Below are positions 4,544-24,991 of a stretch of 64,000 bases of DNA, one piece after another; the stretch's first letter is position 1, and every line of letters starts with the position of its first letter. Source of the DNA: an uncultured Mycobacteriaceae bacterium (GTDB taxonomy: Bacteria; Actinomycetota; Actinomycetes; Mycobacteriales; Mycobacteriaceae); assembly GCA_902826815.1 (NCBI GenBank), contig CADEGF010000005.1, positions 87,243 through 151,242 on the forward strand, written 5' to 3'. The notes under the pieces were generated by a model. It had not been told where the DNA came from. It was given only the letters and a program-made list of their open reading frames with translations, and did not search any database. The translations under genes were made by a program, and so were the position numbers.

Positions 4544-5148
4544 TACCTGGCTCCTTTTGCCTTTTCGGCGGTGATGCCGCCGAGAACGATGGACAGATAC
4601 TGCTGACCGACCTGTTCGGCCGTCAGGGGTCCGCCGGGCTGATACCAGCGGACTGAGACCCATGTGGTGTCGCGGATGAAGCGATACACCAGGTCGACGT
4701 CGATGTCTGGGCGGAAGTACCCCTCGGCCATGCCCTGGTTGAGCAGGTCCAGCCACATCTTGCGCTGCTCTTTGTTGCGGTCCTCGACATAGGAGAACCG
4801 CGGCTGACCCGTCAGCCGCTTCGCTTCGTCCTGGTAGATGACGACCTGGGCGTGCCGATGCTCGATCGCCTCGAACGACGCCATGAACAGGCCCTTGAGC
4901 CGTTCGAGCGGGTTCGGCTCGGTGGCGACGATCTCTTGATAGCGCTCGAAGAGCCAGTCGAGGAAGCCGCGCAGCACCTCGTCGACCATCTCCTCTTTGG
5001 AAGAGAAGTGGTGATAGAGGCTGCCGGACAGGATGCCCGCGGAGTCGGCGATGTCGCGCACCGTGGTGGCGCGCAGCCCACGTTCGGCGAACATCGTCGC
5101 GGCGAGGTCCAGCAGCTCGTCGCGACGGCTCAGTGCGGCCTTGTCCAC
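4543..5148 (-). CDS. kstR2: TetR-family repressor KstR2
   Basis: A 201-residue regulator with an N-terminal TetR helix-turn-helix (LLDLAATMFAERGLRATTVRDIA, GILSGSLYHHFSSKEEMVDEVL, roughly residues 12-62) and a C-terminal ligand domain ending QVGQQYLSIVLGGIT. The sequence closely resembles mycobacterial KstR2 (Rv3557c) as I remember it, including the long identical stretch around YRFIRDTTWVSVRWY. KstR2 represses HIP (steroid C/D-ring) degradation genes and is released by HIP-CoA. A matching operator lies 16 bases upstream of the start (5164-5177) and another between fadE30 and fadD3. It forms an operon with fadA6. Its usual neighbours ipdF and fadE30 have been moved 6 kb away by the cassette at 5383-11536. 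Confidence 0.95.
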   Translation of the reverse strand: MDKAALSRRDELLDLAATMFAERGLRATTVRDIADSAGILSGSLYHHFSSKEEMVDEVLRGFLDWLFERYQEIVATEPNPLERLKGLFMASFEAIEHRHAQVVIYQDEAKRLTGQPRFSYVEDRNKEQRKMWLDLLNQGMAEGYFRPDIDVDLVYRFIRDTTWVSVRWYQPGGPLTAEQVGQQYLSIVLGGITAEKAKGAR

Positions 5149-5163
5149 ATGTCGAGGATAGCA

Positions 5164-5177
5164 ACCAAGCGCTTGCT
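5164..5177. promoter_or_regulatory. KstR2 operator
   Basis: ACCAAGCGCTTGCT fits the published KstR2 site (AnCAAGnnCTTGnT) and lies 16 bases upstream of the kstR2 start, implying autoregulation of kstR2-fadA6. The same 14-mer with one changed base recurs at 13488-13501. Confidence 0.85.
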
Positions 5178-5260
5178 AGGTAACTCCCGGTGGCCCTTCG
5201 ACCCGAAGTTTCCGACCGTTTACGCAGTGACAACCGACCAAGATCGGAATTCCCATAATT

Positions 5261-5281
5261 TATAGGATCTCTCGTTCTATA
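5261..5281. promoter_or_regulatory. Candidate GntR operator, site D
   Basis: TATAGGA and TTCTATA form an inverted repeat with one mismatch and a seven-base spacer, in an AT-rich patch that is unusual for this GC-rich DNA. The TTCTATAG core is identical to site B at 1584. It lies about 100 bases before the ABC transporter operon and is the sequence link between that operon and the GntR gene. Confidence 0.45.
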
Positions 5282-5382
5282 GTTTATTTCGGCAGCCAGA
5301 AGGCCGACGGCTGCGCGGTCTTTGCAGGTCATCCGCCCGATAGCCATGCAGCCGCCCGGCGGTACACGCAGGAGGTCCATCG

Positions 5383-6426
5383 ATGAACAGGAAGACAACG
5401 TCCCTACTGGCTGCGCTCAGCGCCGGCATCTTGCTCGTCTCCGGGTGCAGCGGCCCAGGAGACGATTCGAAGTCAGCCGACAGCGGGGAGGACGGTGTCA
5501 TCCGGTTCACCTTCTCGCCCGACCCTGCCTGGGACTGGATCCAGGATCAGGGGATTCTCGAAGAGATGGAGAAGGACTCCGGTTTCCGGATCCTTCAGAC
5601 GGTGACATGGGATGAGTACGGCCAGTTCGCAGGCGGGCACGCCGACGTCGTCTCCATCGGCACCTACGAGCTGCAGAACCTCGAGCAGGAGACGGGGGTC
5701 GAAACCGTCACGTTCGGCAAGTTCAACAAGGCCAAGGACGTGTTGATCACGGCGAACCCGCAGTGGGAGAAGGTCTCTGACATGCCCAAGGGCTGCAAGA
5801 TCGCCGCCGAGTCGCCGGTCGGTAACACGCTGATCTGGACGGCGCTGCTGAAGCAGATGGACGACCGCACCCTCGCCGAGAACGGCGATGATCTCAACCT
5901 GGTCACCGCCGACTACCAGGTGATCCCGGAACTCGTGCTGAACAACGAGGTATGCGGCGCCTTCGCCGATCCCACCCAGTCGATCCCCGAGTTCGCCTCC
6001 GGCAAGTTGAACATCATGTACGACGGAAGGTCCGCCTCCGAGCTGTTCGGCGAGATCATGCAGCCGGGCCACGAGGGCGTGATGAGCAACCTGTTCACCG
6101 CTCGCAAGGAGTGGTACGACTCCCACAAGGAGGAGGCCGCGTTCTTCCTCGAGGTGTGGCAGCGCGCCATGGACGAGTGGGCCGAGCACCGCGACGAGAT
6201 CATCGACGAGTACCCGCAGCACTTCGCCGTGAAGAACGCGGAAGAGGCCGCGTGGATGAAGGGTTACTTCGCCAACACTTTCGACTGGTTCGTCGACTCG
6301 CCGTATCTCACCCAGGAGTGGATTGACAAGGAGAAAAAGATCTTTCAGCTCCTGAAGGATGCCGGGGTGGCCCCTGCCGACCAGCCCGATCCCGAGATGG
6401 TCGTCATCGAGCCGTCCAAGTCCTGA
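5383..6426 (+). CDS. ABC transporter substrate-binding lipoprotein (NitT/TauT type)
   Basis: A 347-residue exported solute receptor. A lipoprotein signal peptide occupies residues 1-22 with lipobox VSGC, followed by an acidic linker and a periplasmic-binding fold resembling the NMT1/SsuA group (FTFSPDPAWDWIQDQGILEEME, HADVVSIGTYELQNLE, AESPVGNTLIWTALLKQM). The ATG follows a strong AGGAGG. It is first of a transporter operon with two permeases and an ATPase, and an inverted repeat at 5261 may place it under the GntR regulator. Family members bind sulfonates, nitrate, pyrimidine precursors or aromatic acids. The substrate cannot be read, but the amidohydrolases downstream suggest an imported carbon source. 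Confidence 0.88.
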   Translation: MNRKTTSLLAALSAGILLVSGCSGPGDDSKSADSGEDGVIRFTFSPDPAWDWIQDQGILEEMEKDSGFRILQTVTWDEYGQFAGGHADVVSIGTYELQNLEQETGVETVTFGKFNKAKDVLITANPQWEKVSDMPKGCKIAAESPVGNTLIWTALLKQMDDRTLAENGDDLNLVTADYQVIPELVLNNEVCGAFADPTQSIPEFASGKLNIMYDGRSASELFGEIMQPGHEGVMSNLFTARKEWYDSHKEEAAFFLEVWQRAMDEWAEHRDEIIDEYPQHFAVKNAEEAAWMKGYFANTFDWFVDSPYLTQEWIDKEKKIFQLLKDAGVAPADQPDPEMVVIEPSKS

Positions 6427-9581: not shown

Positions 9582-10562
9582 TTGCCCAGCATCATTGACG
9601 TTCATGCCCACGTAACGCCGCGCTGCTTCAGCGACGTCGTGCTCGGCGGGGCCGACTGGCACGGGATGACGTCCGACGACGGTGAACTGCACAACCCGAT
9701 GAATCGGTGGGGCATCGATCAACGGATCGAGGCCATGGACCAGGACGGCATCGACGTGCAGCTCACCTCGCCGACCGACGTCTTCTATCAGTACCACCAG
9801 GACCCGACGGTCACCGCGACGATCGCATCGACTGTGAACGACGAAGTGGCAGAGATGGTTCGGGCCCGCCCGACGCGGATCGCGGGCCTGGCGACGGTGC
9901 CGATGCAGGACACCGACCTGGCCGTCACCGAGCTCACAAGGGCAGTCCGCGATCTGGGTCTGCGCGGGGTGATGATCGATGATCATGTCAACGGAATGAC
10001 CTATGACGAGCCGCGCTTCGACGCGTTCTGGCAGGCCGCCGAGGAGTTGGGGGCACTGATCTTCGTACACCAGTACGCCCCGACGTCGGTCGAGGCGCGG
10101 ATCGACAAGTTCTTCTTCTTCAACTCGATCGGAAACCTCGTCGACCGCGCGATCACGTTCGGCGCGCTGGTGTACGGCGGGGTGATGGACCGCTACCCCG
10201 ATCTCAAGGTCTGCCTCGGACACGCGGGTGGCTATACGGCTTTCGCGCTGGACCGAATGGACCAGGGCTGGCGGGCGTTCCCGTCGATGCGCGGTGCGAC
10301 GACGGCGCCGCCGAGTACCTACGCGCGCCGGTTCACCTACGATGCGGTCACCTATGAGCCGCGCACACTGCGCTACCTCGTCGACGTCGTCGGTGCGGAC
10401 CGGGTCGTGCTCGGCACCGACTGGCCTGCGCCGATGCGCGTTCTCGAACCGGTCACCAGGTTGACGTCGATCGGTGTGCTTACACCAGAAGAAGTCGAGT
10501 CCATCCTGCGTGGCACAGCGGCCATGCTGCTGGGCGATCCAACTAGAAGAGAGGCCGAATAG
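9582..10562 (+). CDS. Amidohydrolase, ACMSD-like metal-dependent hydrolase/decarboxylase, copy 1
   Basis: A 326-residue TIM-barrel enzyme of the amidohydrolase-2 group. Metal-ligand motifs are visible: the N-terminal HxH in IDVHAHVTP (residues 5-13), His in IFVHQY, His in CLGHAGGY and Asp in LGTDWPAP. Members include ACMSD, gamma-resorcylate decarboxylase and other enzymes acting on aromatic carboxylates or lactones. The start is TTG 9582, since no ATG or GTG fits the frame before the HxH motif. It is paralogous to the next gene (shared HVNGMTYDEPRF and SIGNLVDRAITFGALVYGG). As a tandem pair the two may take successive steps or act as a hetero-oligomer. The reaction cannot be told from sequence. 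Confidence 0.85.
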   Translation: MPSIIDVHAHVTPRCFSDVVLGGADWHGMTSDDGELHNPMNRWGIDQRIEAMDQDGIDVQLTSPTDVFYQYHQDPTVTATIASTVNDEVAEMVRARPTRIAGLATVPMQDTDLAVTELTRAVRDLGLRGVMIDDHVNGMTYDEPRFDAFWQAAEELGALIFVHQYAPTSVEARIDKFFFFNSIGNLVDRAITFGALVYGGVMDRYPDLKVCLGHAGGYTAFALDRMDQGWRAFPSMRGATTAPPSTYARRFTYDAVTYEPRTLRYLVDVVGADRVVLGTDWPAPMRVLEPVTRLTSIGVLTPEEVESILRGTAAMLLGDPTRREAE

Positions 10563-10564
10563 CC

Positions 10565-11536
10565 TTGGCCGTCATCGATGTTCACTCACACGTCACCCCG
10601 CCCAGCTTTCGCGATGCGGTTCTCGACGGCGGTACATGGCACACCCTGACCAATGCGATCGGTGAGCTCGAGATCCCGGAGTTCTCCATCTCCTCGAAGG
10701 ACCGGATCGCGAAGATGGACGCCGCGGGCATCGACATGCACGTGCTCACCGTCAACAACGACTTCTACCGCTATGAACTCGACCCCGGGCTGACGCAGGA
10801 GATCGCCCAAGCGTGCAACGAGGAGATCGGCCAGATGATGGCCGACCATCCCGACCGGTTCACCGGGCTGGCGACGGTGCCGATGCAGGATGTCGAGCGG
10901 GCGGTGGCCGAGATGGAACGCGCGATGTCGACGCTGGGCTACCGCGGCATCACGATCAACGACCACGTCAACGGCGTGACTTTCGACGAGCCGAGGTTCT
11001 ACCCGTTCTGGGAAGCCGTGGAATCCCTTGGTGCAGTGGTGTTCTTCCACCAGTGCGGGCCTACCCTGGTCAAGGCGCGCACCACCCGCTACGCGCTGCC
11101 CAACAGCATCGGCAACCTCGTCGACCGCGCCGTGACATTCGGCACGCTGGTGTTCGGCGGCATCATGGACCGCTACCCCGACCTGAAGATCTGTCTCGGG
11201 CATGCAGGCGGCTACGCGCCGTTCGGTGTGGCGCGGATGGACAAGACCTGGCGCGCCGCCGATCCGGAGGTGCCCGAGTTCGCCGATGCCAGGCTACCCA
11301 AACCGCCGAGCGAATACCTGGACCGGTTCTACTACGACTCCTGTACCTACACCGAGGAGACCTTGCGGTTTCTCATCGACGCCGTCGGCATAGACCGGGT
11401 GGTGCTCGGCACCGACTATCCCGCGCCGATGGTGCAAGAGGATCCGGTCGGCTGGCTGGAGAAAATGTCCGGTGTCAGCGATGCGGAGCGGACGGCGATC
11501 CTGGAGACCAACCCGGCACGGATGCTGGGCATCTAG
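10565..11536 (+). CDS. Amidohydrolase, ACMSD-like metal-dependent hydrolase/decarboxylase, copy 2
   Basis: A 323-residue paralogue of the preceding enzyme, two bases downstream, with TTG start 10565 behind GAGAGG. The metal motifs are preserved: VHSHVTP, FFHQCGP, CLGHAGGY and LGTDYPAP. Long stretches match copy 1 (DHVNGVTFDEPRF; NSIGNLVDRAVTFGTLVFGGIMDRYPDLK), but the substrate loop after FFHQ differs (CGPTLVKARTTRYALP against YAPTSVEARIDKFFFF), which points to different substrates. It ends the operon that began at 5383 and abuts the convergent ipdF with one base between. Confidence 0.85.
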   Translation: MAVIDVHSHVTPPSFRDAVLDGGTWHTLTNAIGELEIPEFSISSKDRIAKMDAAGIDMHVLTVNNDFYRYELDPGLTQEIAQACNEEIGQMMADHPDRFTGLATVPMQDVERAVAEMERAMSTLGYRGITINDHVNGVTFDEPRFYPFWEAVESLGAVVFFHQCGPTLVKARTTRYALPNSIGNLVDRAVTFGTLVFGGIMDRYPDLKICLGHAGGYAPFGVARMDKTWRAADPEVPEFADARLPKPPSEYLDRFYYDSCTYTEETLRFLIDAVGIDRVVLGTDYPAPMVQEDPVGWLEKMSGVSDAERTAILETNPARMLGI

Positions 11537-13521: not shown

Positions 13522-15105
13522 ATGACTTGGGGGCACCGCCCGCTTGCGGGGGACGATCCGAGGACCATTCCGCAGGTCCTTGACCGGATTGCCGACCAAT
13601 TCTCCGACCGTGAGGCCGTCGTCACCGACGATCGGCGGCTGACCTTCGCGCAACTACGCGAGGAGGTGCGCATGGCCGCCGCCGCGATGATCGACCTCGG
13701 CGTGGCAGCCGGAGACCGCGTCGCGATCTGGTCGCCGAACACCTGGCACTGGGTCGTCGCATGCCTTGCCACCCATTACGCGGGCGGCGTCGTCGTCCCG
13801 CTGAACACCCGCTACACCGCGAGCGAGGCGGCCGACGTGCTGGCGCGGACCGGCGCGCCACTGCTCTTTGCCGCCGGTGAATTCCTCGGTGCGGACAAGA
13901 CCGCCGACCTGGATCGGGGTTCCCTGCCCGACCTCCGCCACATCGTCCGGGTTCCGATCGATGCGGCCGACGGCACATGGGAAGAGTTCGTCGCGCGGGG
14001 GGAGGATGTTGCCGCCAGAAAAGAAGCCGATGCCCGTGCCGCGGCGGTGAAACCCGACGACGTCTCCGACATCCTGTTCACCTCCGGCACGACCGGCCGG
14101 AGCAAGGGTGCGCTGTGCGCGCACCGCCAGTCGCTCGACGCGCCCGCGGCGTGGGCCGCGTGCGGGCAGCTCACCAGCGCCGACCGCTACCTCTGCATCA
14201 ACCCGTTCTTCCACAACTTCGGTTACAAGGCGGGCATCCTGGCCTGCCTGCAGACGGGCGCGACGCTCATCCCGCAGCTGACGTTCGATCCGGAAAAGGC
14301 GATGGCCGCGGTGGCAGAGCACCGGATCACCGTGCTGCCAGGTCCCCCCACGATCTATCAGATGCTGCTTGACCACCCGAGGCGCGGCGAATACGACCTG
14401 ACGTCGCTGCGGTTCGCGGTCACCGGCGCGGCGACGATCCCGGTGGTGTTGATCGAGCGGATGCAGTCCGAGCTGGACATCGACATCGTGCTGACCGCCT
14501 ACGGCCTGACGGAGGCCAGCGGGTTCGGCACCATGTGCCGGGCTGACGACGACGCCGTCACCGTCGCCACCACGTCCGGCCGCCCGATCGCCGACTTCGA
14601 ACTGCGCATCGACGGAGCCGGCCTGGCCGGCGAAGATGGATCAAGCTCCGGCGAGGTGCTGCTGCGAGGGCCCAACGTGATGCTCGGATATCTCGACGAC
14701 CCCGAGGCGACGGCGAAGACGATCGACGCCGACGGCTGGCTGCACACCGGTGACATCGGCCGGGTCGACGAAGCGGGCAACCTGACGATCACCGATCGGC
14801 TGAAGGACATGTACATCAGCGGCGGGTTCAACGTCTACCCGGCGGAAGTGGAGCAGGTGCTCGCCCGGCTCGACGGTGTCGCGGAGTCCGCCGTGATCGG
14901 CGTCCCCGACGAGCGGCTCGGCGAGGTCGGTAAGGCCTTCGTCGTGGTCAAGCCGGGCGCGACGCTGGACGAGGGAACCGTGATCGCCTACACCCGTGAA
15001 CATCTGGCGAAATTCAAGACGCCGCAGTCCGTGGAGTTCCTCGACGTCCTTCCGCGCAACCCCGGAGGCAAGGTCGTCAAACCACAATTGCGAGAGAGGC
15101 ACTGA
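13522..15105 (+). CDS. fadD3: HIP-CoA ligase FadD3
   Basis: A 527-residue class I adenylate-forming enzyme. It has the P-loop ILFTSGTTGRSKGAL (about 184-198), A5 motif TAYGLTEASGFG, hinge region GDIGRVDEAG and the C-terminal catalytic Lys in NPGGKVVKPQ. FadD3 activates the steroid C/D-ring acid HIP with ATP and CoA, which also creates the KstR2 inducer HIP-CoA. ATG 13522 lies 20 bases after the KstR2 box. It heads the fadD3-fadE31-fadE32-fadE33 operon, and its last base is the first of the fadE31 start (overlap 1). Confidence 0.93.
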   Translation: MTWGHRPLAGDDPRTIPQVLDRIADQFSDREAVVTDDRRLTFAQLREEVRMAAAAMIDLGVAAGDRVAIWSPNTWHWVVACLATHYAGGVVVPLNTRYTASEAADVLARTGAPLLFAAGEFLGADKTADLDRGSLPDLRHIVRVPIDAADGTWEEFVARGEDVAARKEADARAAAVKPDDVSDILFTSGTTGRSKGALCAHRQSLDAPAAWAACGQLTSADRYLCINPFFHNFGYKAGILACLQTGATLIPQLTFDPEKAMAAVAEHRITVLPGPPTIYQMLLDHPRRGEYDLTSLRFAVTGAATIPVVLIERMQSELDIDIVLTAYGLTEASGFGTMCRADDDAVTVATTSGRPIADFELRIDGAGLAGEDGSSSGEVLLRGPNVMLGYLDDPEATAKTIDADGWLHTGDIGRVDEAGNLTITDRLKDMYISGGFNVYPAEVEQVLARLDGVAESAVIGVPDERLGEVGKAFVVVKPGATLDEGTVIAYTREHLAKFKTPQSVEFLDVLPRNPGGKVVKPQLRERH

Positions 15106-16244
15106 TGGACCTCGCCTTCGACAGTGAGACAGAGGAGTTCCGGGCCGAGGTCCGCGACTTCCTCTCCGCCAACTCAGAGCTTTTCCCGACCAAGTCCTAC
15201 GACACCGCAGAGGGCTTCGAACAGCACCGACGTTGGGACAAGGTGCTTTTCGACGCGGGCCTTTCGGTGATCGCATGGCCGAAGAAATACGGCGGCCGCG
15301 ACGCCACGCTGCTGCAGTGGGTGGTGTACGAGGAGGAGTACTTCCGCGCAGGAGCGCCAGGCCGCGCCAGCGCCAACGGGACCTCGATGCTCGCTCCGAC
15401 ACTGTTCGCCCACGGCACCGACGAACAACTCGACCGCGTGCTGCCGAAGATGGCCAGCGGTGAGGAGATCTGGGCGCAAGCCTGGTCGGAGCCGGAGTCG
15501 GGCAGCGACCTGGCGTCGCTGCGCTCCACCGCGACCAAGACCGACGGCGGCTGGAAGCTCAACGGGCAGAAGATCTGGAGTTCGCGGGCACCGTTCGGCG
15601 ACAGGGCATTCGGGCTCTTCCGATCCGACCCAGAGGCCGAGCGGCACAAAGGGCTGACGTACTTCATGTTCGACCTGGACGCCGACGGCGTCACGGTGCG
15701 ACCGATCGCGCAGCTCGGCGGCGACACGGGCTTCGGCGAGATCTTCCTCGACGACGTCTTCGTTCCCGACAACGACGTGATCGGCGGCGTGCAGGACGGC
15801 TGGCGCGCCGCGATGAGCACGTCGAGCAACGAGCGCGGCATGTCGCTGCGCAGCCCCGCGCGGTTCCTGGCGCCCGCGGAGCGACTCGTCGAGCAGTGGA
15901 AATCGAACCCCGACCCAGTGTTCACGGATCGGGTCGCGGACGCGTGGATCAAGGCGCAGGCGTACCGGTTGCACACCTTCGGTACCGTCACCCGACTCAC
16001 GAATGGCGGTGAGCTTGGCGCCGAGTCGTCGATCACGAAGGTGTTCTGGTCCGACCTCGACGTGGCGCTGCACCAGACTGCGCTGGATATGCGGGGTGCC
16101 GACGGCGAGCTGGTCGACTCGTGGACCGAGGGCCTGCTGTTCGCCCTCGGCGGCCCGATCTACGCGGGCACCAACGAGATTCAGCGCAACATCATCGCCG
16201 AGCGGCTGCTCGGTCTGCCCCGCGAACCCAAGGGGACCAAGTGA
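15105..16244 (+). CDS. fadE31: Acyl-CoA dehydrogenase FadE31
   Basis: A 379-residue full-length acyl-CoA dehydrogenase. Motifs include WAQAWSEPESGSDLASLRST, LNGQKIWSSRAPFGDRAFGLFR and IYAGTNEIQRNIIAERLLGLPREPKG at the C-terminus. It has the same position as Rv3562 in M. tuberculosis, in the KstR2 regulon for HIP degradation. FadE31 is one of three neighbouring dehydrogenase subunits. The start follows the fadD3 stop, and its own stop overlaps fadE32 as GTGA. Confidence 0.92.
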   Translation: MDLAFDSETEEFRAEVRDFLSANSELFPTKSYDTAEGFEQHRRWDKVLFDAGLSVIAWPKKYGGRDATLLQWVVYEEEYFRAGAPGRASANGTSMLAPTLFAHGTDEQLDRVLPKMASGEEIWAQAWSEPESGSDLASLRSTATKTDGGWKLNGQKIWSSRAPFGDRAFGLFRSDPEAERHKGLTYFMFDLDADGVTVRPIAQLGGDTGFGEIFLDDVFVPDNDVIGGVQDGWRAAMSTSSNERGMSLRSPARFLAPAERLVEQWKSNPDPVFTDRVADAWIKAQAYRLHTFGTVTRLTNGGELGAESSITKVFWSDLDVALHQTALDMRGADGELVDSWTEGLLFALGGPIYAGTNEIQRNIIAERLLGLPREPKGTK

Positions 16245-17194
16245 ACTTCGAGATCGACGAACAGCAGCGCGATTTCGCGGCGAGCATCGACGCGGCGCTG
16301 GCCGCCGCCGACGTGCCTGCGGCAGTTCGGGCACGGGCGCAGGGTGACACCGGTCCAGGACGCAAGGTCTGGTCGACGCTGGCCGACCTCGGCGTCACCG
16401 CACTGCTGGTATCCGAGCGCTACGACGGCATCGAGGCGCATCCCGTCGACCTCGTCGTCGCCGCGGAACGACTCGGCTACTGGGGCGTACCCGGGCCCGT
16501 CACCGAGTCCATTGCGGTGGCGCCGATTCTGCTCGCCGACGACGAGCGCTCCGGTGCGCTCGCATCCGGCGAGCTGATCGCGACTGTTGCCCTTGCGCCG
16601 CACGTGCCGCGTGCTGTCGACGCCGACTCCGCAGGCTTGATCCTGGTCGCCGGTGACGGCGAGGTTCGCGACGGCAGTGCGGGAGAGCCGCACGAGTCAG
16701 TCGATCCTGCCAGGACGCTCTTCGATGTGACGGCCTCCGGCGAGGCGCAGAAGGCCGAAACGGCAAAGGCTTTCGAGTACGGAGTGCTCGCCAATGCCGC
16801 ACAACTGGTCGGCGCAGGCCAGGCCATGCTCGACGCCTCGGTGGAGTACGCGAAACAGCGCAGCCAGTTCGGCAGGACCATCGGGTCCTATCAGGCGATC
16901 AAGCACAAGCTCGCCGACGTATACATCGCAGTCGAGTTGGCACGGCCGCTGGTGTACGGTGCCGCCCTGTCGCTGGCGGGCGGGTCGGACGACACGGCAC
17001 GCGACGTCAGCGCCGCGCTGGTGGCCGCCGCGGAAGCGGCGCTGTTGTCTGCGCGCTCCTCGTTGCAGACGCACGGCGCGATCGGTTTCACCCAAGAACA
17101 CGACCTGTCACTGCTGCTACTGCGGGTGCAGGCGTTGCGTTCGGCGTGGGGCGACCCGGCGTGGCATCGCCGACGCGTATTGGAGGCCTTGTGA
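16241..17194 (+). CDS. fadE32: Acyl-CoA dehydrogenase subunit FadE32
   Basis: A 317-residue short acyl-CoA dehydrogenase-like subunit starting at GTG 16241. The core is recognisable (EYAKQRSQFGRTIGSYQAIKHKLADVYIAVELARPLVYGAA; LQTHGAIGFTQEHDLSLLLLR), but it is shorter than FadE31. Mycobacterial steroid-type dehydrogenases of this size usually form heteromers with a partner subunit, and FadE33 next door is the candidate. It overlaps fadE31 and fadE33 by four bases each, implying coupled translation. Counterpart of Rv3563. Confidence 0.9.
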   Translation: MNFEIDEQQRDFAASIDAALAAADVPAAVRARAQGDTGPGRKVWSTLADLGVTALLVSERYDGIEAHPVDLVVAAERLGYWGVPGPVTESIAVAPILLADDERSGALASGELIATVALAPHVPRAVDADSAGLILVAGDGEVRDGSAGEPHESVDPARTLFDVTASGEAQKAETAKAFEYGVLANAAQLVGAGQAMLDASVEYAKQRSQFGRTIGSYQAIKHKLADVYIAVELARPLVYGAALSLAGGSDDTARDVSAALVAAAEAALLSARSSLQTHGAIGFTQEHDLSLLLLRVQALRSAWGDPAWHRRRVLEAL

Positions 17195-18132
17195 GCCAAG
17201 AACGGGAATTGCTTCGAGAGACTGTCGCGGCGCTGGTCGACAAGCACGCGTCGGCTGCGTCGGTGCGCCAGACCGTCGAGGCAGGGACTGGTTACGACGA
17301 GTCGCTGTGGAAGCTGTTGTGCGAACAGGTCGGAGCCGCCGCGTTGGTGGTGCCGGAGGAGTTGGGCGGCGCCGGTGGTGAACTCGCCGACGCCGCCGTC
17401 GTCCTCGAGGAGCTCGGTAGGACTCTCGCGCCGACGCCGCTGCTCGGTACGACGCTGGCGGAGCTGGCGCTGCTTTCCGCCGACGAGCCCGACAGCGATA
17501 CGATCGAGAAGCTCGCCGAGGGTGCGGCGATAGGGGCGGTGGTCTTCGATCCCGGGTTCGTGGTCAACGGCGCGATCGCCGATATCGTCGTCGCCACCGA
17601 TGGTGAGACGCTGCGTCGCTGGAGCTCGTTCACCGCGACCCCCGTCGACGCCATGGACCCCACCCGACCGCTCGCGCGGCTGGCGCCACAGGCAACCTCG
17701 GCCATCGGCGCCGACCCTGGCCTCGCCGACACCGCGGCGATCCTTGTGGCGGCTGAACAGATCGGCGCGGCGGCCAGGTGCCTCGACCTGACCGTCGAAT
17801 ACGCCAAGGATCGCGTCCAGTTCGGCCGACCGATCGGCAGCTTCCAGGCGCTCAAACACCGGATGGCCGACCTCTATGTCGCCGTGCAGTCGGCGCGCGC
17901 GGTGGTCAACGCGGCCGTCGCCGAGCCGACGGCCACCTCGGCGGCGCTGGCCAGGTTCTCGGCAAGCGAGGCGTTCTCGAAGGTCGCCGCCGACGCCGTG
18001 CAGATCCACGGCGGGATCGCGATCACCTGGGAGCACGACATCCAGCTGTACTTCAAACGAGCACACGGCAGCGCACAGCTGCTCGGCCCGCCGAGGGAGC
18101 ATCTGCGACGGCTCGAGCCAGAGGTGCTGTAG
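17191..18132 (+). CDS. fadE33: Acyl-CoA dehydrogenase subunit FadE33
   Basis: A 313-residue subunit starting at GTG 17191. It retains VEYAKDRVQFGRPIGSFQALKHRMADLYVAVQSARAVV and HGGIAITWEHDIQLYFKRAHGSAQLLG; its catalytic segments are complementary to those of FadE32, as expected for a heteromeric enzyme. Last gene of the fadD3 operon, matching Rv3564. Its stop is only three bases from the end of the convergent OpuC-type operon, where in M. tuberculosis aspB follows directly, so this is an insertion boundary. Confidence 0.9.
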   Translation: MSQERELLRETVAALVDKHASAASVRQTVEAGTGYDESLWKLLCEQVGAAALVVPEELGGAGGELADAAVVLEELGRTLAPTPLLGTTLAELALLSADEPDSDTIEKLAEGAAIGAVVFDPGFVVNGAIADIVVATDGETLRRWSSFTATPVDAMDPTRPLARLAPQATSAIGADPGLADTAAILVAAEQIGAAARCLDLTVEYAKDRVQFGRPIGSFQALKHRMADLYVAVQSARAVVNAAVAEPTATSAALARFSASEAFSKVAADAVQIHGGIAITWEHDIQLYFKRAHGSAQLLGPPREHLRRLEPEVL

Positions 18133-18135
18133 CGA

Positions 18136-19059
18136 TCAGTTGCCGCTGATTCCTGCGTTGGCAAGCCACTTCTTGGCGATGTCAGCCAAGTTCGTGCCCT
18201 TGGCCGCCTCCGCGTTCATGGAGATGAGGTCGTCGGTGGTGAGCTTGGCCGACACCGAGTCGAGCGTCTTCTTGATCGTGTCGTTCTGTTTGGCAGCCTT
18301 GATCAGCGGGACGACGTTCTCGGCGGCGAACAGGTTCTTGTCATCGTCAAGGGCGACAAGATGGTTCGCGTGCAGACCGGGATCCGTGCTGAACAGGTCG
18401 CCAGCCTGAATCTGTCCGTTGGTGAGCGCCGTCATCGTCAATGTGCCGCCCGCGTCGAGGCTGACGAACTCCTTGAAGTTGAGACCGTAGATGTCGCGCA
18501 GGCCGACCACGCCCTGGGTCCGCGTCTTCCATTCCGGCGGGCCGCCGAGCACCAGTTCACCTGCAACAGGTTTCAAGTCGGAGATCGACTTCAGCTTGTA
18601 CTTGTCGGCGGTCGCCTGCGTCACGGCCACGACGTCCTTGTCCTCCGCGGCAGACGGCGTCAACATCGAGATACCCTCTGGCAGTTTCTTCGACAGCTCG
18701 TCGGTAACCGCCGCCGGCGTCGCAGCAGTCGATTTCGGGTCGAGATGGCTCAGCAGTGCGCCGGTGTATTCGGGAACGAGATCGATGGATCCGTCATTGA
18801 GCGCCTGCAAATAGACCTCGCGGCTGCCGATGTTGAACTGCTCCTTGGTTTCAACGCCTGCGGCCTGCAACGCCTGTGAGTAGATGCTGCCGATCAACTG
18901 GCTTTCGGTGAAGTCGGCCGAGCCCACGATGACCTGCGAACCCTCCGATCCACCCTCGTTACCGCCGCCGGACAGCGGATCGCCGCCACCGCCACCGCAG
19001 GCGGACAGCGCGAGAACCGAGGTGACCGCAAGGGCCGAAAGTATGCTGCGCTTCTTCAT
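18136..19059 (-). CDS. Osmoprotectant/betaine ABC transporter substrate-binding lipoprotein (OpuC type)
   Basis: A 307-residue receptor starting at ATG 19059 behind AGGAGA. A lipoprotein signal ends at lipobox LSAC (about residue 20), followed by a Gly-rich linker. The mature part is of the OpuAC type: VIVGSADFTESQLIGSIYSQALQAAGVETKEQ, VYLQALNDGSIDLVPEYTGALLSHL, and GDLFSTDPGLHANHLVALDDDKNLF. These proteins bind quaternary amines through an aromatic box. Last gene of an operon led by the IclR gene; the neighbouring ammonia-lyase-like enzyme suggests an amino-acid betaine rather than simple osmoprotection. Confidence 0.9.
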   Translation of the reverse strand: MKKRSILSALAVTSVLALSACGGGGGDPLSGGGNEGGSEGSQVIVGSADFTESQLIGSIYSQALQAAGVETKEQFNIGSREVYLQALNDGSIDLVPEYTGALLSHLDPKSTAATPAAVTDELSKKLPEGISMLTPSAAEDKDVVAVTQATADKYKLKSISDLKPVAGELVLGGPPEWKTRTQGVVGLRDIYGLNFKEFVSLDAGGTLTMTALTNGQIQAGDLFSTDPGLHANHLVALDDDKNLFAAENVVPLIKAAKQNDTIKKTLDSVSAKLTTDDLISMNAEAAKGTNLADIAKKWLANAGISGN

Positions 19060-19098
19060 CTGTATTTCTCCTGTTGGGTGATCGGCGCCAGGAGGCAC

Positions 19099-19827
19099 CT
19101 AGGTGGTGGCTGGTTCGAGAACTGCGGTGGCGAGCGGTGAGCTGTTTTTCGACGCCACCCGCCGCAGTCCGGGTGAGACGATGATTCGCCCGAGCCAGGC
19201 GAAGGTGAACTCGAGGAAGATCGCGAGCACCGCGACCAGGATTGCCCCGCCTGCCATTTCGGCGAAGCTGGCGTTCGCCCGACCGTCGAGGATGAAGCGA
19301 CCGAGGCCCTGCAGTCCGAGATAGGCCGCGATGGTGGCGGTCGAGACGATCTGCAAAGTCGACGAACGCACACCGGACACCATCAGCGGCAGTGCGCAGG
19401 GAAGCTGGACGCGCGTCAGGATCTGACGCTTGGTGAAGCCCATGCCGCGGGCCGCTCCCACGGCATCCGGGTCGGCGGTCTGGATGCCCGCGTAGGTCCC
19501 GGTCAGGATCGGGGGCACCGCCAACAGCACAAGCACGATGACGGTGGGCAGCACATAGACGAGCTGTCCGGCCGCAACCGGCGAGACGATCAGGAAGAGC
19601 AGCACCAGCAGACCCAGCGAAGGCAATGCCCGCAATGCATTCGCGAATCCGGCGACCAGCGCCTCGCCTTTGCCCGTGTAGCCGATGACGATTCCAAGCG
19701 GTACGCCGATCGCCAGCGCAATGAGAAGCGCGACCGCCGAATACAACAGGTGATAGCCGATTTGGGCGGGGATGCCGCCGGAGCCCGTCCAGTTCGCGGG
19801 GTCGGTGAACCAGCCGCCGATGTTCAT
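19099..19827 (-). CDS. OpuC-type ABC transporter permease 2
   Basis: A 242-residue permease starting at ATG 19827, overlapping the other permease by four bases. Hydrophobic segments include LLYSAVALLIALAIGVPLGIVIGY and AGGAILVAVLAIFLEFTFAWL. The ATPase-docking loop is DPDAVGAARGMGFTKRQILTRVQLPCALPLMVSGVRSS, typical of OpuCB/OpuCD. It forms the membrane channel with the permease at 19824. Confidence 0.9.
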   Translation of the reverse strand: MNIGGWFTDPANWTGSGGIPAQIGYHLLYSAVALLIALAIGVPLGIVIGYTGKGEALVAGFANALRALPSLGLLVLLFLIVSPVAAGQLVYVLPTVIVLVLLAVPPILTGTYAGIQTADPDAVGAARGMGFTKRQILTRVQLPCALPLMVSGVRSSTLQIVSTATIAAYLGLQGLGRFILDGRANASFAEMAGGAILVAVLAIFLEFTFAWLGRIIVSPGLRRVASKNSSPLATAVLEPATT

Positions 19828-20468
19828 GAGGTCACCGTCCTTTGCCGCCACGGCGTAAGAAGCTTGTTCAGCCAGAGGATCAGGCCGTCGAACACGACCG
19901 CGAGTACGACACACAGCACGACGCCGACGACGAGCGGGGTGAAAAGCCTCAGCTGGAAGCCCTGGGTGAACAGCGAGCCCAGCTGCGGGATGCCAAGTAG
20001 CGCGGCCATGGTGACGATGCTGACGTTGGATACCACCGCCACCCGTAAGCCGGCCGCAATCACCGGCACGGCGACCGGCAGTTCGACAAGCAGCAGCCGT
20101 TGCCAGCCGCGGTAGCCCATGGCTTCGGCTGCTGCGACGGTCTCGTGTGGCACCGAGCTGAGTCCGTCGGCAACGACCCGGACCAACAACGCCACGGTGT
20201 AAAGCGTCAGCGCGACAACGATATTGATCGGATCGAGGATCTTGGTGCCGAGTATCACGGGAAGAATGATGAAGAGAGCAAGCGATGGAATCGTGTAGAG
20301 CAGGCCCGCGGTTCCGACGATGGCCGCGTAGCCGCGACCTGATCGGTGCGCCCACCAGCCGAGCGGCAGCGCGACAACCAGGCCGAGGATCGTCGGTACG
20401 AGTGTGAGCCACGCATGGCTGATGGTCAGGTCGACGATGCGATCGATGTTCGACGAAATCCAGTTCAT
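19824..20468 (-). CDS. OpuC-type ABC transporter permease 1
   Basis: A 214-residue permease starting at ATG 20468, which overlaps the ATPase stop (ATGA). It carries SHAWLTLVPTILGLVVALPLGWW, LLYTIPSLALFIILPVILGT and the docking loop ETVAAAEAMGYRGWQRLLLVELPVAVPVIAAGLR, all characteristic of the betaine/carnitine/choline permease family. Confidence 0.9.
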   Translation of the reverse strand: MNWISSNIDRIVDLTISHAWLTLVPTILGLVVALPLGWWAHRSGRGYAAIVGTAGLLYTIPSLALFIILPVILGTKILDPINIVVALTLYTVALLVRVVADGLSSVPHETVAAAEAMGYRGWQRLLLVELPVAVPVIAAGLRVAVVSNVSIVTMAALLGIPQLGSLFTQGFQLRLFTPLVVGVVLCVVLAVVFDGLILWLNKLLTPWRQRTVTS

Positions 20469-21571
20469 GCCACTGACCGCGCTTCCTTGGCTCGCCTGAT
20501 CGCATCGATGACATCGTGGTCGGTGGCGGTACCGATCAGCGCGCCGGATTCGTCGGTCACCACGCATCGCCCACTCGGGCTAGACAGCGCCGAGTTCAGC
20601 AGATCCCTCAGTGGGTCACTGCGAGACGCAGACGTTCCGCTGAGGTTGACGTCGTGCTGTGTCACCGATTCACCATGCACGCTTTCGCTGTCGACCCAGC
20701 CGATCGGCACGTTGTCCGCGTCAACCGCCAGGATCCAGCGTCCGTTGCCGGACGGGAGCGCCGAAACCGGCTGCCCGACAGTGATGGTCGGCTCGTCGGA
20801 GAGCTCGAGATCGCTGTCGCAGTTGTGGAAGCCCAGCGCCCGATAGCCTCGTGCGGACCCGACGAAGTCGGCGACGAACGTATCGCTCGGCGCAGCAAGC
20901 AACTCAGCGGGGGTCGCGGCCTGCGCCAGAGTTCCGCCCTGACGCAGCACGACGACCTGGTCGCCCAGCTTGAGCGCCTCGTCGATGTCGTGGGTGACCA
21001 ACACGATCGTCTTGGATATGTCGGCCTGCAGACGCAGGAACTCATCCTGCAGCTGATTTCGGACGATCGGGTCGACCGCACTGAAGGGCTCGTCCATCAG
21101 GAGGAAGGGCGGGTCGGTCGCGAGCGCACGCGCCACCCCGACGCGCTGTTGCTGTCCCCCCGACAGCTGCCACGGGTACCGCTTTGCGAACTTGGCATCG
21201 AGTCCGACCCGCTCGAGGAGTTCCATTGCCACCGAACGGGTTTCCTTCTTACCGCCGCCGAGCAGGCGCGGAAGGGCCGCGACGTTGTCCACGACGGTGC
21301 GGTGGGGGAATAGGCCGGCATTCTGGATCACGTAGCCGATTCGCCTGCGCAGGGTGACCCGGTCGAGCGTCTGGGTGTCGACTCCTTCGAGTTCGATCGT
21401 GCCCGATGTCGGCTCGATCAGGCGGTTGATCATCCGCATCGAGGTGGTTTTGCCGCAGCCCGACGGGCCGACCAGCGTGGTGATCTGGCCTGCCGGGGCG
21501 GTGATCGTGAGGCTGTCGACCGCAGTGGTGCCGTCCGGATACACCTTGGAGACATTGTCGAACGTGATCAT
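20465..21571 (-). CDS. OpuC-type ABC transporter ATPase with CBS-like C-terminal region
   Basis: A 368-residue ATPase. It has Walker A GPSGCGKT (35-42), Q-loop VIQNAGLFPHRTV, signature LSGGQQQRVGVARALA, Walker B FLLMDEPFSAVDPI and switch His in VTHDIDEALKLGD. Residues from about 260 to the end form two CBS-like repeats (RWILAVDADNVPIGWVDSE; GRCVVTDESGALIGTATDHDVIDAIRRA), which sense ionic strength or nucleotides in OpuA/OpuC. It overlaps the IclR gene by four bases. Confidence 0.92.
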   Translation of the reverse strand: MITFDNVSKVYPDGTTAVDSLTITAPAGQITTLVGPSGCGKTTSMRMINRLIEPTSGTIELEGVDTQTLDRVTLRRRIGYVIQNAGLFPHRTVVDNVAALPRLLGGGKKETRSVAMELLERVGLDAKFAKRYPWQLSGGQQQRVGVARALATDPPFLLMDEPFSAVDPIVRNQLQDEFLRLQADISKTIVLVTHDIDEALKLGDQVVVLRQGGTLAQAATPAELLAAPSDTFVADFVGSARGYRALGFHNCDSDLELSDEPTITVGQPVSALPSGNGRWILAVDADNVPIGWVDSESVHGESVTQHDVNLSGTSASRSDPLRDLLNSALSSPSGRCVVTDESGALIGTATDHDVIDAIRRAKEARSVA

Positions 21572-22251
21572 GACTGTCCTTCTGGGAGGCGTGATTTCAA
21601 TGAGCGGCTCAACTGGGCAGAAACATCCCCGGCCGCGAGCGTCAGCATTCGGCCGAATTCGGCGGCCTGGTCTTTGGTGAGCCGGTAGCTCGGGATGACC
21701 AGGCTCATCGCAGCAACAATTCGCGCCTCCGAATACACCGGGCAGGCGATCGCCGTGACGTCGGCCTCGATCCCACGCTCCACCACGACGTATCCGGCGT
21801 CGGGTACGCGGCCGCGCAGTGCGCGGCCCGCAGCTGATTTGTCGAGTGGCACCGTTCGACCCACCCAGCTGGTGTGCCGGACGGAGTGTGTCCCCTCGAC
21901 GATCCCGATGTACAGCGCGGTCGCGCCGTGCCCCTCGACGCTGAGGTACGCCGACTCGCCGGTCTCGGCAACGAGCTTCTCCATGGTCGACTTGGCGAGA
22001 TCGACAAGCGATTCGTTGGACAGCGCCTGCGCACCGAGCTGGATGAGGCGGGCCCCGGGCCGGTAGGTGCCTCCCCGCTCCCCCCTGCCGATGAACCCCG
22101 TGTTCTCGAGCGTGCGCAACAGTCGCAGTGCTGTGCTCGGGGCCAGGTCACAGTCCCTTGCGGTGTCGGCGAGGTTCGCACTGCCTCGCTCGCAGACGGC
22201 GGCGAGCAGGGCGAGCGCGCGCTCGACCGTACGTGTCGACGGCTCTGCCAC
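21568..22251 (-). CDS. IclR-family regulator
   Basis: A 227-residue regulator with an N-terminal winged helix (TVERALALLAAVCERGSANLADTARDCDLAPSTALRLLRTLENTGFI, residues 8-54) and a C-terminal IclR effector domain (ESAYLSVEGHGATALYIGIVEG, SAAGRALRG, ACPVYSEARIVAAMSLVIPSYR). It starts at GTG 22251 and leads the transporter operon through a four-base overlap. It is divergent from the ammonia-lyase homologue, with an inverted repeat between them. It probably senses the transported compound or a breakdown product and controls both transcripts. Confidence 0.9.
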   Translation of the reverse strand: MAEPSTRTVERALALLAAVCERGSANLADTARDCDLAPSTALRLLRTLENTGFIGRGERGGTYRPGARLIQLGAQALSNESLVDLAKSTMEKLVAETGESAYLSVEGHGATALYIGIVEGTHSVRHTSWVGRTVPLDKSAAGRALRGRVPDAGYVVVERGIEADVTAIACPVYSEARIVAAMSLVIPSYRLTKDQAAEFGRMLTLAAGDVSAQLSRSLKSRLPEGQS

Positions 22252-22277
22252 TGCGACCTCCTCTCGCCCGTGTCAAG

Positions 22278-22300
22278 ATTCCATTCAATAGCATTGGAAT
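22278..22300. promoter_or_regulatory. Candidate IclR operator
   Basis: ATTCCA and TGGAAT form an inverted repeat separated by 11 bases in the 126-base gap between the divergent iclR and ammonia-lyase genes. Size and position suit an IclR site controlling both directions. No experimental consensus supports it. Confidence 0.45.
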
Positions 22301-22377
22301 TTCATCTAGCGGCAATGCGGGGTTTTGGTGATGATAGAACTGATCGCTCGCATGCGGTAGGGAGAACGGAGAATTTC

Positions 22378-23817
22378 ATGATTGTGCTTAACGGATCGGC
22401 GACCATCGCTGACGTTGTGGCACTCGCGGACCGTCGTGAACAGGTCTCGGTTTCGCCTGCGATCATCGCGGCGGTCGGGCGGGCACACGAGATCGCGGCC
22501 GAGCTGTCCACCCGATTCGACATCTATGGGCGGACGACAGGCGTCGGCGCCAATCGCGCCACCTCGGTGGCGCCCGACGACACCGAGTACGGCATGCGGC
22601 TGCTGCGGAGCCATGCCGTCGACGCGGGAGACCCACTCGAGCGCCGGACTGTCCGGGCGATGCTCGCGGTGAGGCTCAGTCAATTGTGCGTGCCAGGGGC
22701 CGGGCTCGACCCCGCGATCCTCACAGGGCTGGAGACGATGCTCAATGCGGACGCGCTTCCTGAACTTCGGCAATACGCGTCGATCGGGACTGGTGACCTC
22801 GCGCCGCTGGCAGGTACCGCCCTGACCCTGATCGGAGAACGGCACGCGTCGAAGCCGTTGATACCTATGCCGAAATGGGGCGCCGACAGTGCGCTGCCGT
22901 TCATGAGCAGCAGTGCGCTCACCGTCGGGCGCGGTTGTCTTGCACTGGAGGAACTTTCGCGGCTAGAACGCGCATCGAGTGTGATCTACGTGCTTAGCTT
23001 CCTCGCATTGGAGGGCAATCCTCAGGCGCTGTCGTCCATCGCGGCAAAGGCGTCGGCGGCACCGTACGTCGGTACCGTCGCCGCGCGGGTGCGCTCGATC
23101 ATGGCGGGCAGCGGCTTGCCGGACGCACCCGCGGCCAGGATCCAGGATCCCTATGGACTTCGGGTCTATCCGGTCGCGCAGGCCAGCGTGGTGGCGTCCC
23201 TGCATTCGCTCGAGAGTCAGCTCGAGCAGACGCTGAACGCAGCGCAGGAGAACCCGCTGTTCGACGTCGAAGACGAAACCGTCATCCATCACGGCGCCTT
23301 CTACCAGGCATCGTTGTCACTCGAGTTGGACGGCACCACGTTGGCACTGGCCCTGACCGCACCCATCACCCATTCCCGGATCAGGATGCTCAATGATCCG
23401 GATACCAACGGCGGCAATGCCTTCCTGGCCGCAGACACCGACGGCTCATCGGGCCTGATGATGGTGGAATACGTGGCGGCAGGAGCGATCGCTGAGATCC
23501 GCAACGCTGCGCAGCCCGCAGCCGCAGGCACCCTCGTGCTGTCCCGCGGAGCAGAAGAGGACGCCACCTTCGCGTCACAGGGTGCACAACAACTCGAGCG
23601 GTCGATCGCCGCCTACCGGGTGTTGTTGTGCTGCGAACTCGTCGGCGCCATCAGGCTGTTGCGTCAACGGCGGTTCGATGGCCGGTTCTCCGGGGTGGTC
23701 GGTGATGCGCTCGGGCTGGCCGCAGTACTACCGGACAACGTCGAAGACCGCGATCTACGCGGTGACATCGCACTGGCCGAGTCACTGCTTGACGACATCG
23801 GACGACTCGTCGCCTAG
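22378..23817 (+). CDS. Histidine/aromatic ammonia-lyase family enzyme lacking the ASG cofactor motif
   Basis: A 479-residue member of the HAL/PAL superfamily. ATG 22378 follows GGAGAACGGAG; the frame is open far upstream but through the iclR gene. The fold landmarks are kept: the Tyr loop YGRTTGVGANR (50-60), QDPYGLR (256-262) and AQENPLF, with THSRIRML downstream. The Ala-Ser-Gly triplet that cyclises to the MIO cofactor is replaced by Gly-Thr-Gly in SIGTGDLAPLAG (residues 137-139). The enzyme may therefore not make MIO and may eliminate a better leaving group than ammonia, such as trimethylamine. Divergent from an IclR regulator and betaine-type transporter, and 10 bases ahead of aspB. A plain ammonia-lyase function is still possible if Thr can replace Ser. 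Confidence 0.8.
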   Translation: MIVLNGSATIADVVALADRREQVSVSPAIIAAVGRAHEIAAELSTRFDIYGRTTGVGANRATSVAPDDTEYGMRLLRSHAVDAGDPLERRTVRAMLAVRLSQLCVPGAGLDPAILTGLETMLNADALPELRQYASIGTGDLAPLAGTALTLIGERHASKPLIPMPKWGADSALPFMSSSALTVGRGCLALEELSRLERASSVIYVLSFLALEGNPQALSSIAAKASAAPYVGTVAARVRSIMAGSGLPDAPAARIQDPYGLRVYPVAQASVVASLHSLESQLEQTLNAAQENPLFDVEDETVIHHGAFYQASLSLELDGTTLALALTAPITHSRIRMLNDPDTNGGNAFLAADTDGSSGLMMVEYVAAGAIAEIRNAAQPAAAGTLVLSRGAEEDATFASQGAQQLERSIAAYRVLLCCELVGAIRLLRQRRFDGRFSGVVGDALGLAAVLPDNVEDRDLRGDIALAESLLDDIGRLVA

Positions 23818-23827
23818 CCTGGCTATC

Positions 23828-24991
23828 GTGTCCGACAACCGCGTCTCGCTGCGCGCAGGGATCCCGCCCTTCCATGTGATGGACGTGTGGCTGGCCGCCG
23901 CAGAGCGGCAGCGCACGCACGGCGATCTGGTTAACCTGTCGGCGGGCCAGCCGAGTGCGGGCGCCCCTGCCGCCGTGCGGGCCAAGGCGATCGAGACGCT
24001 CGAGACCACAGTGCTCGGCTACACCGTCGCACTCGGCATCCCCGAACTGCGAACCGCGATCGCTGCGGCCTATCAACTTCGGCACGGGCTGGTCGTCGAC
24101 CCGACCGACGTGGTCGTCACCACCGGTTCTTCCGGCGGGTTCCTGTTGACGTTCCTTGCGTGCTTCGACGCGGGCGACCGGGTCGCGATCGCAAGTCCCG
24201 GCTACCCCTGCTACCGAAACATCCTGTCGGCGCTCGGTTGTGAGGTCGTCGAGATCCCGTGCGGGTCCGAGACCAGGTTCCAGCCGACGGCAAAGATGCT
24301 CGCCGAACTCGATCCACCGGTGAAGGGCGTGGTCGTCGCGAGCCCCGCCAACCCGACGGGCACCGTGATCCCGCCTGATGAGCTGGCAGCGATCGCCTTG
24401 TGGTGTGCGGACTCGGGTGTCCGGCTGATCAGCGATGAGGTGTACCACGGTCTGGTGTACCAGGGCGCCCCTGACACCAGCTGTGCGTGGGAGACGTCAC
24501 GGGAAGCCGTTGTGGTCAACAGCTTTTCGAAGTACTTCGCGATGACGGGCTGGCGGCTCGGGTGGCTGCTGGTGCCGCCGGAGCTGCAACGCGCAGTCGA
24601 CTGCCTTACCGGAAACTTCACGATCTGCCCGCCGGTGCTGTCGCAGAACGCCGCCGTCGCCGCCTTCACGCCTGAGTCGATCGCGGAGTCCGACGCCCTT
24701 CTGCATCACTACGCCGCCAACCGCGAACTGCTGCTCGACGGGCTGCCGAAGATCGGCATCGACCGCCTCGCGCCTACCGACGGCGCGTTCTACGTCTATG
24801 CCGATGTCTCGCACCTGACCAGCGACTCGCTGTCGTTCTGCTCGAAGCTGTTGGCGGACACCGGCGTCGCGATCGCACCGGGCGTCGACTTCGACACACA
24901 GCGCGGGGGCTCGTACGTGCGGCTGTCGTTCGCGGGTCCGACCAGCGATATCGAAGAGGCGCTGCACCGAATCGAGAGTTGGCTCAACTGA
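23828..24991 (+). CDS. aspB: PLP-dependent aspartate-type aminotransferase AspB
   Basis: A 387-residue fold-type I aminotransferase starting at GTG 23828. It has NLSAGQPSAGAP near the N-terminus, the PLP-binding segments SPANPTG and ISDEVYHGL, the Schiff-base Lys in NSFSKYFAMTGWRLGW (SKYF) and an Arg in GSYVRLSFA for the substrate carboxylate. It transfers an amino group between an amino acid and a 2-oxo acid; the exact pair is unknown. In M. tuberculosis (Rv3565) it directly follows fadE33, whereas here it follows the ammonia-lyase homologue by 10 bases and probably shares its transcript. Confidence 0.88.
   Translation: MSDNRVSLRAGIPPFHVMDVWLAAAERQRTHGDLVNLSAGQPSAGAPAAVRAKAIETLETTVLGYTVALGIPELRTAIAAAYQLRHGLVVDPTDVVVTTGSSGGFLLTFLACFDAGDRVAIASPGYPCYRNILSALGCEVVEIPCGSETRFQPTAKMLAELDPPVKGVVVASPANPTGTVIPPDELAAIALWCADSGVRLISDEVYHGLVYQGAPDTSCAWETSREAVVVNSFSKYFAMTGWRLGWLLVPPELQRAVDCLTGNFTICPPVLSQNAAVAAFTPESIAESDALLHHYAANRELLLDGLPKIGIDRLAPTDGAFYVYADVSHLTSDSLSFCSKLLADTGVAIAPGVDFDTQRGGSYVRLSFAGPTSDIEEALHRIESWLN

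Follow-up and report, generated by a model that had tools for sequence, protein, structure and literature searches.

Hercynine (histidine betaine, N-alpha-trimethyl-L-histidine) is the direct precursor of ergothioneine and is made by mycobacteria and fungi. The described systems that come closest to the locus treated here are ergothionase, the ergothioneine importer EgtU and the hut clusters of corynebacteria. Ergothionase, which cleaves ergothioneine to thiourocanate and trimethylamine, has been definitively identified in few microorganisms, and divergent homologues are unaccounted for in the available text of the source (PMC13405746). The EgtU receptor, EgtUC, is described as having an about 10,000-fold weaker affinity for hercynine than for ergothioneine, the change G244F alone weakening ergothioneine binding about 100-fold (PMC9732360). 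The corynebacterial clusters carry, like the systems below, an IclR regulator (HutR) in a urocanate-pathway cluster, but are described, as far as the available text goes, with HutH and L-histidine use (PMC3350403). Here we analyse a cassette at positions 18136 to 23817 of a 64,000-nucleotide stretch (hereafter the window) from an uncultured Mycobacteriaceae bacterium, in which an importer operon led by a regulator gene lies divergent from a gene for a lyase of the histidine ammonia-lyase (HAL) superfamily.

Our analysis makes it probable (about 0.7) that this cassette takes up and cleaves hercynine. The 11 actinobacterial urocanate hydratases scored among those linked to the lyase family are HutU proteins and not thiourocanate hydratases, which points to urocanate as the most likely product and to hercynine as the substrate; a urocanate product, the imidazole contacts of HAL, the lack of the 4-methylideneimidazole-5-one (MIO) group and an importer of the betaine family, taken together, argue for the same compound. 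The genes of the cassette, with coordinates in the window, are the following.

22378-23817, plus strand: HAL-superfamily MIO-less lyase, proposed hercynine trimethylamine-lyase; 479 aa; PF00221, E = 8e-83
22786-22797, plus strand: codons of G137-T138-G139-D140 at the MIO site, from which the MIO serine of HAL has been deleted
21568-22251, minus strand: IclR-family regulator (PF01614/PF09339), divergent from the lyase
20465-21571, minus strand: OpuC/ProV-type ATP-binding cassette (ABC) ATPase; TIGR01186 proV match
19824-20468, minus strand: binding-protein-dependent permease; open reading frame (ORF) to 20567, with 20468 the likely start
19099-19827, minus strand: binding-protein-dependent permease
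18136-19059, minus strand: OpuAC-type lipoprotein receptor; ORF to 19098, likely start placed from the signal sequence; PF04069, E = 3e-50

These gene calls and domain matches bear out the preliminary description, which had recognised an IclR-led OpuC-type operon divergent from a HAL-superfamily enzyme. With an OpuAC receptor, a ProV-type ATPase and two permeases, the operon has the full set of an OpuC/ProX-type importer. The ATPase scores 296 bits with TIGR01186 (cut-off 327), and the match spans residues 15-360, which places the C-terminal part in the ProV family as well.

Comparison of the lyase with HAL and ergothionase

Relatives of the lyase were collected by a scan of genome contigs, which gave at least 466 confirmed relatives, and 80 of their loci make up the neighbourhood set. 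Residue counts were taken from rows of at least 360 residues, that is, the window protein and 79 of the 80 loci (L128, with a split domain match, was left out), and are numbered according to the HAL of P. putida. Against the latter, the window lyase aligns as SIG-T-(gap)-G-D, with Ser143 deleted, A142 replaced by Thr and Asn195 by Ser. The earlier reading of its ASG motif as GTG was thus right in that the motif is altered and one position out of register, GASGD having become GTGD through loss of the serine. The Ser143 column is empty and N195S is present in all family rows (80/80) and in all rows of the sister groups (7/7), so that the loss cannot be attributed to chance. The gene is also under purifying selection, as nonsynonymous divergence from three orthologues (dN ~0.10-0.17) is far below synonymous divergence (dS ~1.0-1.1; dN/dS ~0.09-0.16).

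The lyase shares with HutH the residues of the substrate pocket, and the two probably also have urocanate as a common product. Q277, R283, N313 and F329 are kept in 80/80 family rows, and Y53, H83 and E414 in 79/80, with one gap each, while position 280 is Tyr in 51 rows and Phe in 29. His83 and Glu414 are, we assume, the imidazole-binding residues, the roles of the lyase pocket residues being carried over from HAL. The lyase differs from HutH in being devoid of the MIO serine, and hence of the A/C-S-G triad that gives rise to the HAL-defining group, as well as of Asn195, in scoring only 211 bits with TIGR01225 (cut-off 539), and in forming a clade of its own.

The resemblance to ergothionase as an enzyme devoid of MIO, suggested in the preliminary description, was confirmed: the T. 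denticola enzyme (6s7j/6s7q) belongs to the same fold family, has the serine deleted at the same place and Asn195 replaced by Ser, and possesses the equivalents of Tyr53, His83, Arg283 and Glu414. The shared deletion and N195S make it likely that the two enzymes use similar chemistry. They differ at the position of the ergothionase lysine, which is Lys in 6s7j, Tyr in 79 of the 80 lyase-family rows and Ala in the remaining one; Tyr also occupies it in 14 of 16 HAL rows, and the lysine is common to 6s7j and a Rhizobium plasmid protein (L136). This protein (NZ_CP140824.1, R. johnstonii pRlX5), annotated as HutH, scores best with 6s7j (265 bits), has GAAD at the MIO site, Arg at the His83 position and Val for Asn195, and adjoins a betaine receptor; it is perhaps an ergothionase relative.

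Phylogenetic trees set the two enzymes apart. In the 108-row tree, where support is by Shimodaira-Hasegawa-like approximate likelihood ratio test (SH-aLRT) only and long branches are flagged, a branch with support 100 sets the lyase family plus its sister groups apart, support for the family by itself is 89, and the MIO-type HALs group together (96). In the 39-row tree, the GTG rows, 6s7j and L136 form one side of a branch (98), and another branch (95) has every MIO-less row on the same side. The lyase does not fall inside the branch holding 6s7j; 6s7j stands on its own branch with L136 alone (97 in the 108-row and 96 in the 39-row tree). Ergothionase may nevertheless be the nearest outside group to the lyase family. 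Independent MIO losses in the GTG, ergothionase and SVGYL groups (the last described below) were considered and dropped, as the position of all MIO-less rows on one branch side is compatible with a single loss.

Further GTG/GTA MIO-less groups, at 32-36% identity, occur in the window's family of genomes (L045, L049, L050, L051, L028, L052 and L054), and some genomes (G269, G350) carry two copies of such enzymes.

Linkage to hut genes and to the importer

Gene neighbourhoods were read in flanks of up to 10 kb, which were short in 27 loci (53 loci were longer than 21 kb), and hutU was called linked at a phmmer score of at least 250 bits. Among the matches listed, the named loci closest to that of the window are those of Mycolicibacterium moriokaense and M. 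stellerae (85%). Compilation of the 80 named actinobacterial loci revealed, within 10 kb of the lyase, (i) hutU in 30, hutF in 22, an allC-like gene in 22, hutI in 14 and a CSG-type HAL in 11, (ii) the OpuC ATPase in 47, the receptor in 44 and either of them in 48, and (iii) the IclR gene in 35, the aminotransferase in 5 and fadD3 in 3. Among the 53 longer loci, hutU is present in 24 and the importer in 37. Loci with linked hutU bear 15 of the 33 genus labels and 11 of the 15 family labels, and in Arthrobacter/Paenarthrobacter loci such as L080, L093, L094, L102 and L104 the order iclR-ATPase-permeases-receptor-hutU-lyase runs along one strand.

Scoring of linked hydratases covered 11 proteins from actinobacteria (L040 being the same record as L065) and one from a Klebsiella plasmid. 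All 11 actinobacterial proteins pass the HutU model TIGR01228 (695-916 bits; cut-off 375), and none passes the models for S-methyl-thiourocanate hydratase (at most 718; cut-off 880) or thiourocanate hydratase (at most 668; cut-off 930). The lyase family, as opposed to ergothionase, is thus linked to true urocanate hydratase.

Co-occurrence across genomes agrees with this linkage, with P-values that overstate independence because the genomes compared are related. The lyase (at least 75% identity) is present in 11 of 198 congeners. A hutU above the cut-off was found in 10 of these 11 carriers, the exception, G069, being 73% complete, against 13 of the 187 other congeners (P = 5.8e-10); in G034, G136, G151 and G153 the sole hutU sits in the lyase cluster. 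A further HAL-like match accompanies the lyase in 11/11 carriers and occurs in 14/187 of the others (P = 1.3e-11), with a CSG triad in the five of the 11 loci that were read. Across the class, the lyase occurs in 21 of 296 genomes (22 places); of these places, 14 have a receptor and 9 have hutU at a distance of at most 15 kb, and hutU is carried by 21/21 lyase carriers versus 171/275 others (P = 7.5e-5). The HAL loci of congeners without the lyase (n = 14) contain hutU in 10 cases and the importer in none. The window genome itself carries EgtD, hutH and hutU, and its separate HAL, with a CSG triad, lies on another contig inside a hut cluster (hutI, hutF, allC-like gene and hutU).

The best-scoring solved receptor for that of the window is EgtUC (98 bits). 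With the residue offset set from residue names in PMC9732360, the cassette receptors retain E375 and R379 (44/44 each), but differ from EgtU at G244 (Phe), F293 (Tyr) and Y337 (Ala) in 44/44, at Y341 (Asp) in 43/44 and at Y443 (Glu or Gln) in 38/44. Since these specificity residues are altered, the cassette receptor is unlikely to be an EgtU. The altered pocket, seen in 44/44 cassette receptors, had first been taken as a cassette-specific signature; this was dropped, as it is largely common to 21 unlinked receptors (20 loci picked by hand from class genomes, and L159). It is the receptor tree only that separates most cassette receptors from unlinked ones, through a clade (100/99) of 35 rows made up of 31 lyase-linked actinobacterial receptors, three from proteobacterial plasmids, which adjoin other MIO-less HAL relatives, and one from A. 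tumefaciens (L158), with no lyase annotated within 7 kb. None of the 21 unlinked receptors falls in this clade. Two of them (L170, L177) have another HAL relative beside the importer, and 19 do not. These two divergent relatives (L170 10550-12883; L177 10554-13139) lie directly beside their OpuC-type importers, the L177 enzyme carrying GSIGASDL where MIO would form, with one residue missing from the triad region.

Substrate and competing explanations

We propose the following course of events. The OpuC-type importer would bring in hercynine, whose imidazole would be held in the lyase by H79 and E393 (equivalent to His83 and Glu414) and whose carboxylate by R262 (Arg283). Y50 (Tyr53) would act as the base that removes the C-beta proton, upon which trimethylamine would leave. 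Quaternary amines leave readily by themselves, so that the MIO electrophile may have become dispensable and been lost. Urocanate would then enter the ordinary Hut pathway, whose genes many relatives carry next to the lyase and the window genome carries on a different contig. The signal for the IclR protein is probably the substrate or the product. The preliminary description had proposed import and cleavage of a trimethylammonium amino acid, with ergothioneine and hercynine as candidates. The uptake-and-cleavage cassette stands, hercynine fits it and trimethylamine would be the amine released; a degradation route for ergothioneine does not fit, given the HutU type of the linked hydratases scored, the missing ergothionase lysine and the alteration of EgtU G244 and F293 in 44/44 receptors.

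That ergothioneine is imported and cleaved by an ergothionase is accordingly quite improbable in our view, even though the Ser143 loss and N195S match 6s7j, EgtUC is the best-scoring solved receptor and the GTG group shares a branch side with 6s7j and L136 in the 39-row tree; to the three points just given may be added that the lyase scores 77 bits with 6s7j versus 141 with the HAL entry 7tqr. Linkage to hutU indicates the product rather than the leaving group, and a different histidine derivative, substituted at N-alpha so that something more easily displaced than ammonia departs (N,N-dimethylhistidine, for example), would likewise yield urocanate; the acidic receptor cage positions 341 and 443 would suit an amine still bearing a proton. 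We hold this to be unlikely, as the importer belongs to a quaternary-amine family and hercynine is a known mycobacterial natural product according to titles cited in PMC7653990.

The retained HAL pocket and the hut linkage would also be in keeping with a divergent MIO-less histidine ammonia-lyase served by a histidine importer, and the HutXWV system of S. meliloti is a Hut-linked betaine-type importer that brings in histidine. However, HAL deprived of its MIO serine is left with little activity, the importer is absent from all 14 HAL loci lacking the lyase, and the lyase is accompanied by a further HAL-like protein in the congeners and by a CSG-type HAL in the 11 loci mentioned above, so the lyase is no replacement for HAL; we rate this explanation as very unlikely. 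Least credible is the use of another aromatic amino-acid betaine (hypaphorine, tyrosine betaine) with degradation of the acrylate through CoA esters. Acyl-CoA ligase and dehydrogenase genes do adjoin the window cassette, and CoA-pathway genes occur at the Rhizobium locus L157, but the neighbours in the window are of the FadD3/IpdE2 type, presumably of steroid catabolism, and converge on the cassette; the lyase retains His83 and Glu414, and the gene that recurs beside it is hutU.

Several observations weigh against hercynine as the substrate. No hut gene is linked to the lyase in the window itself, and the flanks contain no hutU in 50 of the 80 loci (flanks being short in 27). Of the four aromatic positions that form the EgtU cage, just two are still aromatic (Y293, F419), which is unusual for a receptor of a quaternary amine, and the 21 unlinked receptors have the same Y293, A337 and R379 (21/21) and F244, D341 and E375 (19/21). 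The receptor family is found in 102 of the 296 class genomes, mostly away from the lyase, which is in 21, and the receptor clade leaves out 14 of 45 linked receptors, including that of L065, whose importer is at the distal end of its hut genes. As a major facilitator superfamily (MFS) carrier lies near some relatives, not all of them need have one common substrate, and the CoA-pathway genes around the L157 enzyme come without hut genes. Lastly, no trimethylamine-handling gene was identified, no systematic search for one having been made.

MFS carriers take the place of the ABC importer near the lyase at L077, L081, L090, L122, L124, L131 and L134. The L134 carrier matches best the aromatic acid/H+ symport subfamily, and also organic-cation carriers, all below the cut-offs.

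Surroundings of the cassette and a second enzyme type

Further features of the window next to the cassette are these.

22252-22377: divergent promoter region between the IclR and lyase genes
22298-22316: candidate operator-like element AATTTCATCTAGCGGCAAT
23828-24991, plus strand: class I/II aminotransferase, 10 bp 3' of the lyase

In three orthologues (L058, L060, L061) the operator-like element is a perfect palindrome, GATTCCA-TCTGG-TGGAATC. IclR may bind at 22298-22316 in the window, and a regulator site common to the orthologues is only suggested by these matches. On the other side of the cassette, genes at 13522-18132 encode a FadD3-type ligase (833 bits with the NCBIfam model; cut-off 657) and several acyl-CoA dehydrogenases ending with IpdE2 (NF050027, 563 bits; cut-off 450); they converge on the importer with 3 bp between ORFs. 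FadD3 and IpdE2 belong, as we understand it, to steroid ring degradation, and the group is probably one of steroid-ring catabolism. Its ligase and dehydrogenases were for this reason, and for their convergent orientation, rejected as part of the pathway.

Importers of the receptor clade also lie near a second type of triad-less HAL relative, with GSVGYL in place of GSVGASGDL, on Klebsiella pK186_1 (L137), Rhizobium pRlX1 (L157) and Aureimonas pAU20c (L156), with hutU, hutI and hutF in the same cluster in L137 and L156. In Promicromonospora soli (L073) both MIO-less types (3732-5528 and 9878-11365) flank one importer. The second type supports one ligand class for the importer, and does not by itself name the ligand. 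The L137 cluster (NZ_CP076519.1 85368-102729) is a plasmid hut cluster whose importer is 52-55% identical to that of the window; copies at 95% or more were found in 163 of 179 plasmid records matched, and among the matches listed the usual annotation is aromatic amino acid or histidine ammonia-lyase. In L156 (NZ_CP006370.1), the hut cluster has a single hutH, which is devoid of the MIO triad, and adjoins an importer of the same clade.

Overall, at least two MIO-less HAL types, GTG/GTA in Actinobacteria and SVGYL in Rhizobium, Aureimonas and Klebsiella plasmids, are tied to one OpuC-type importer clade, often together with Hut genes. Whether they make up a widespread hercynine-utilisation system yielding urocanate and trimethylamine is, judged from these sequences, an evenly balanced question. 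No hercynine degradation route was found in the literature searched, outside of which most subscription journals fell.

If such a widespread system exists, MIO-less trimethylamine-lyases would be a large group, of which ergothionase is a single branch, and hercynine would be a further microbial source of trimethylamine. If hercynine is indeed the substrate, an enzyme family easily filed as HutH would be misnamed, and searches for trimethylamine sources by ergothionase or choline lyase alone would miss it. The lyase would offer a test case for how the ammonia-lyase fold works once MIO is dispensable, and a producer of ergothioneine could, by means of this cassette, drain an intermediate of its own pathway or feed on the hercynine of others.

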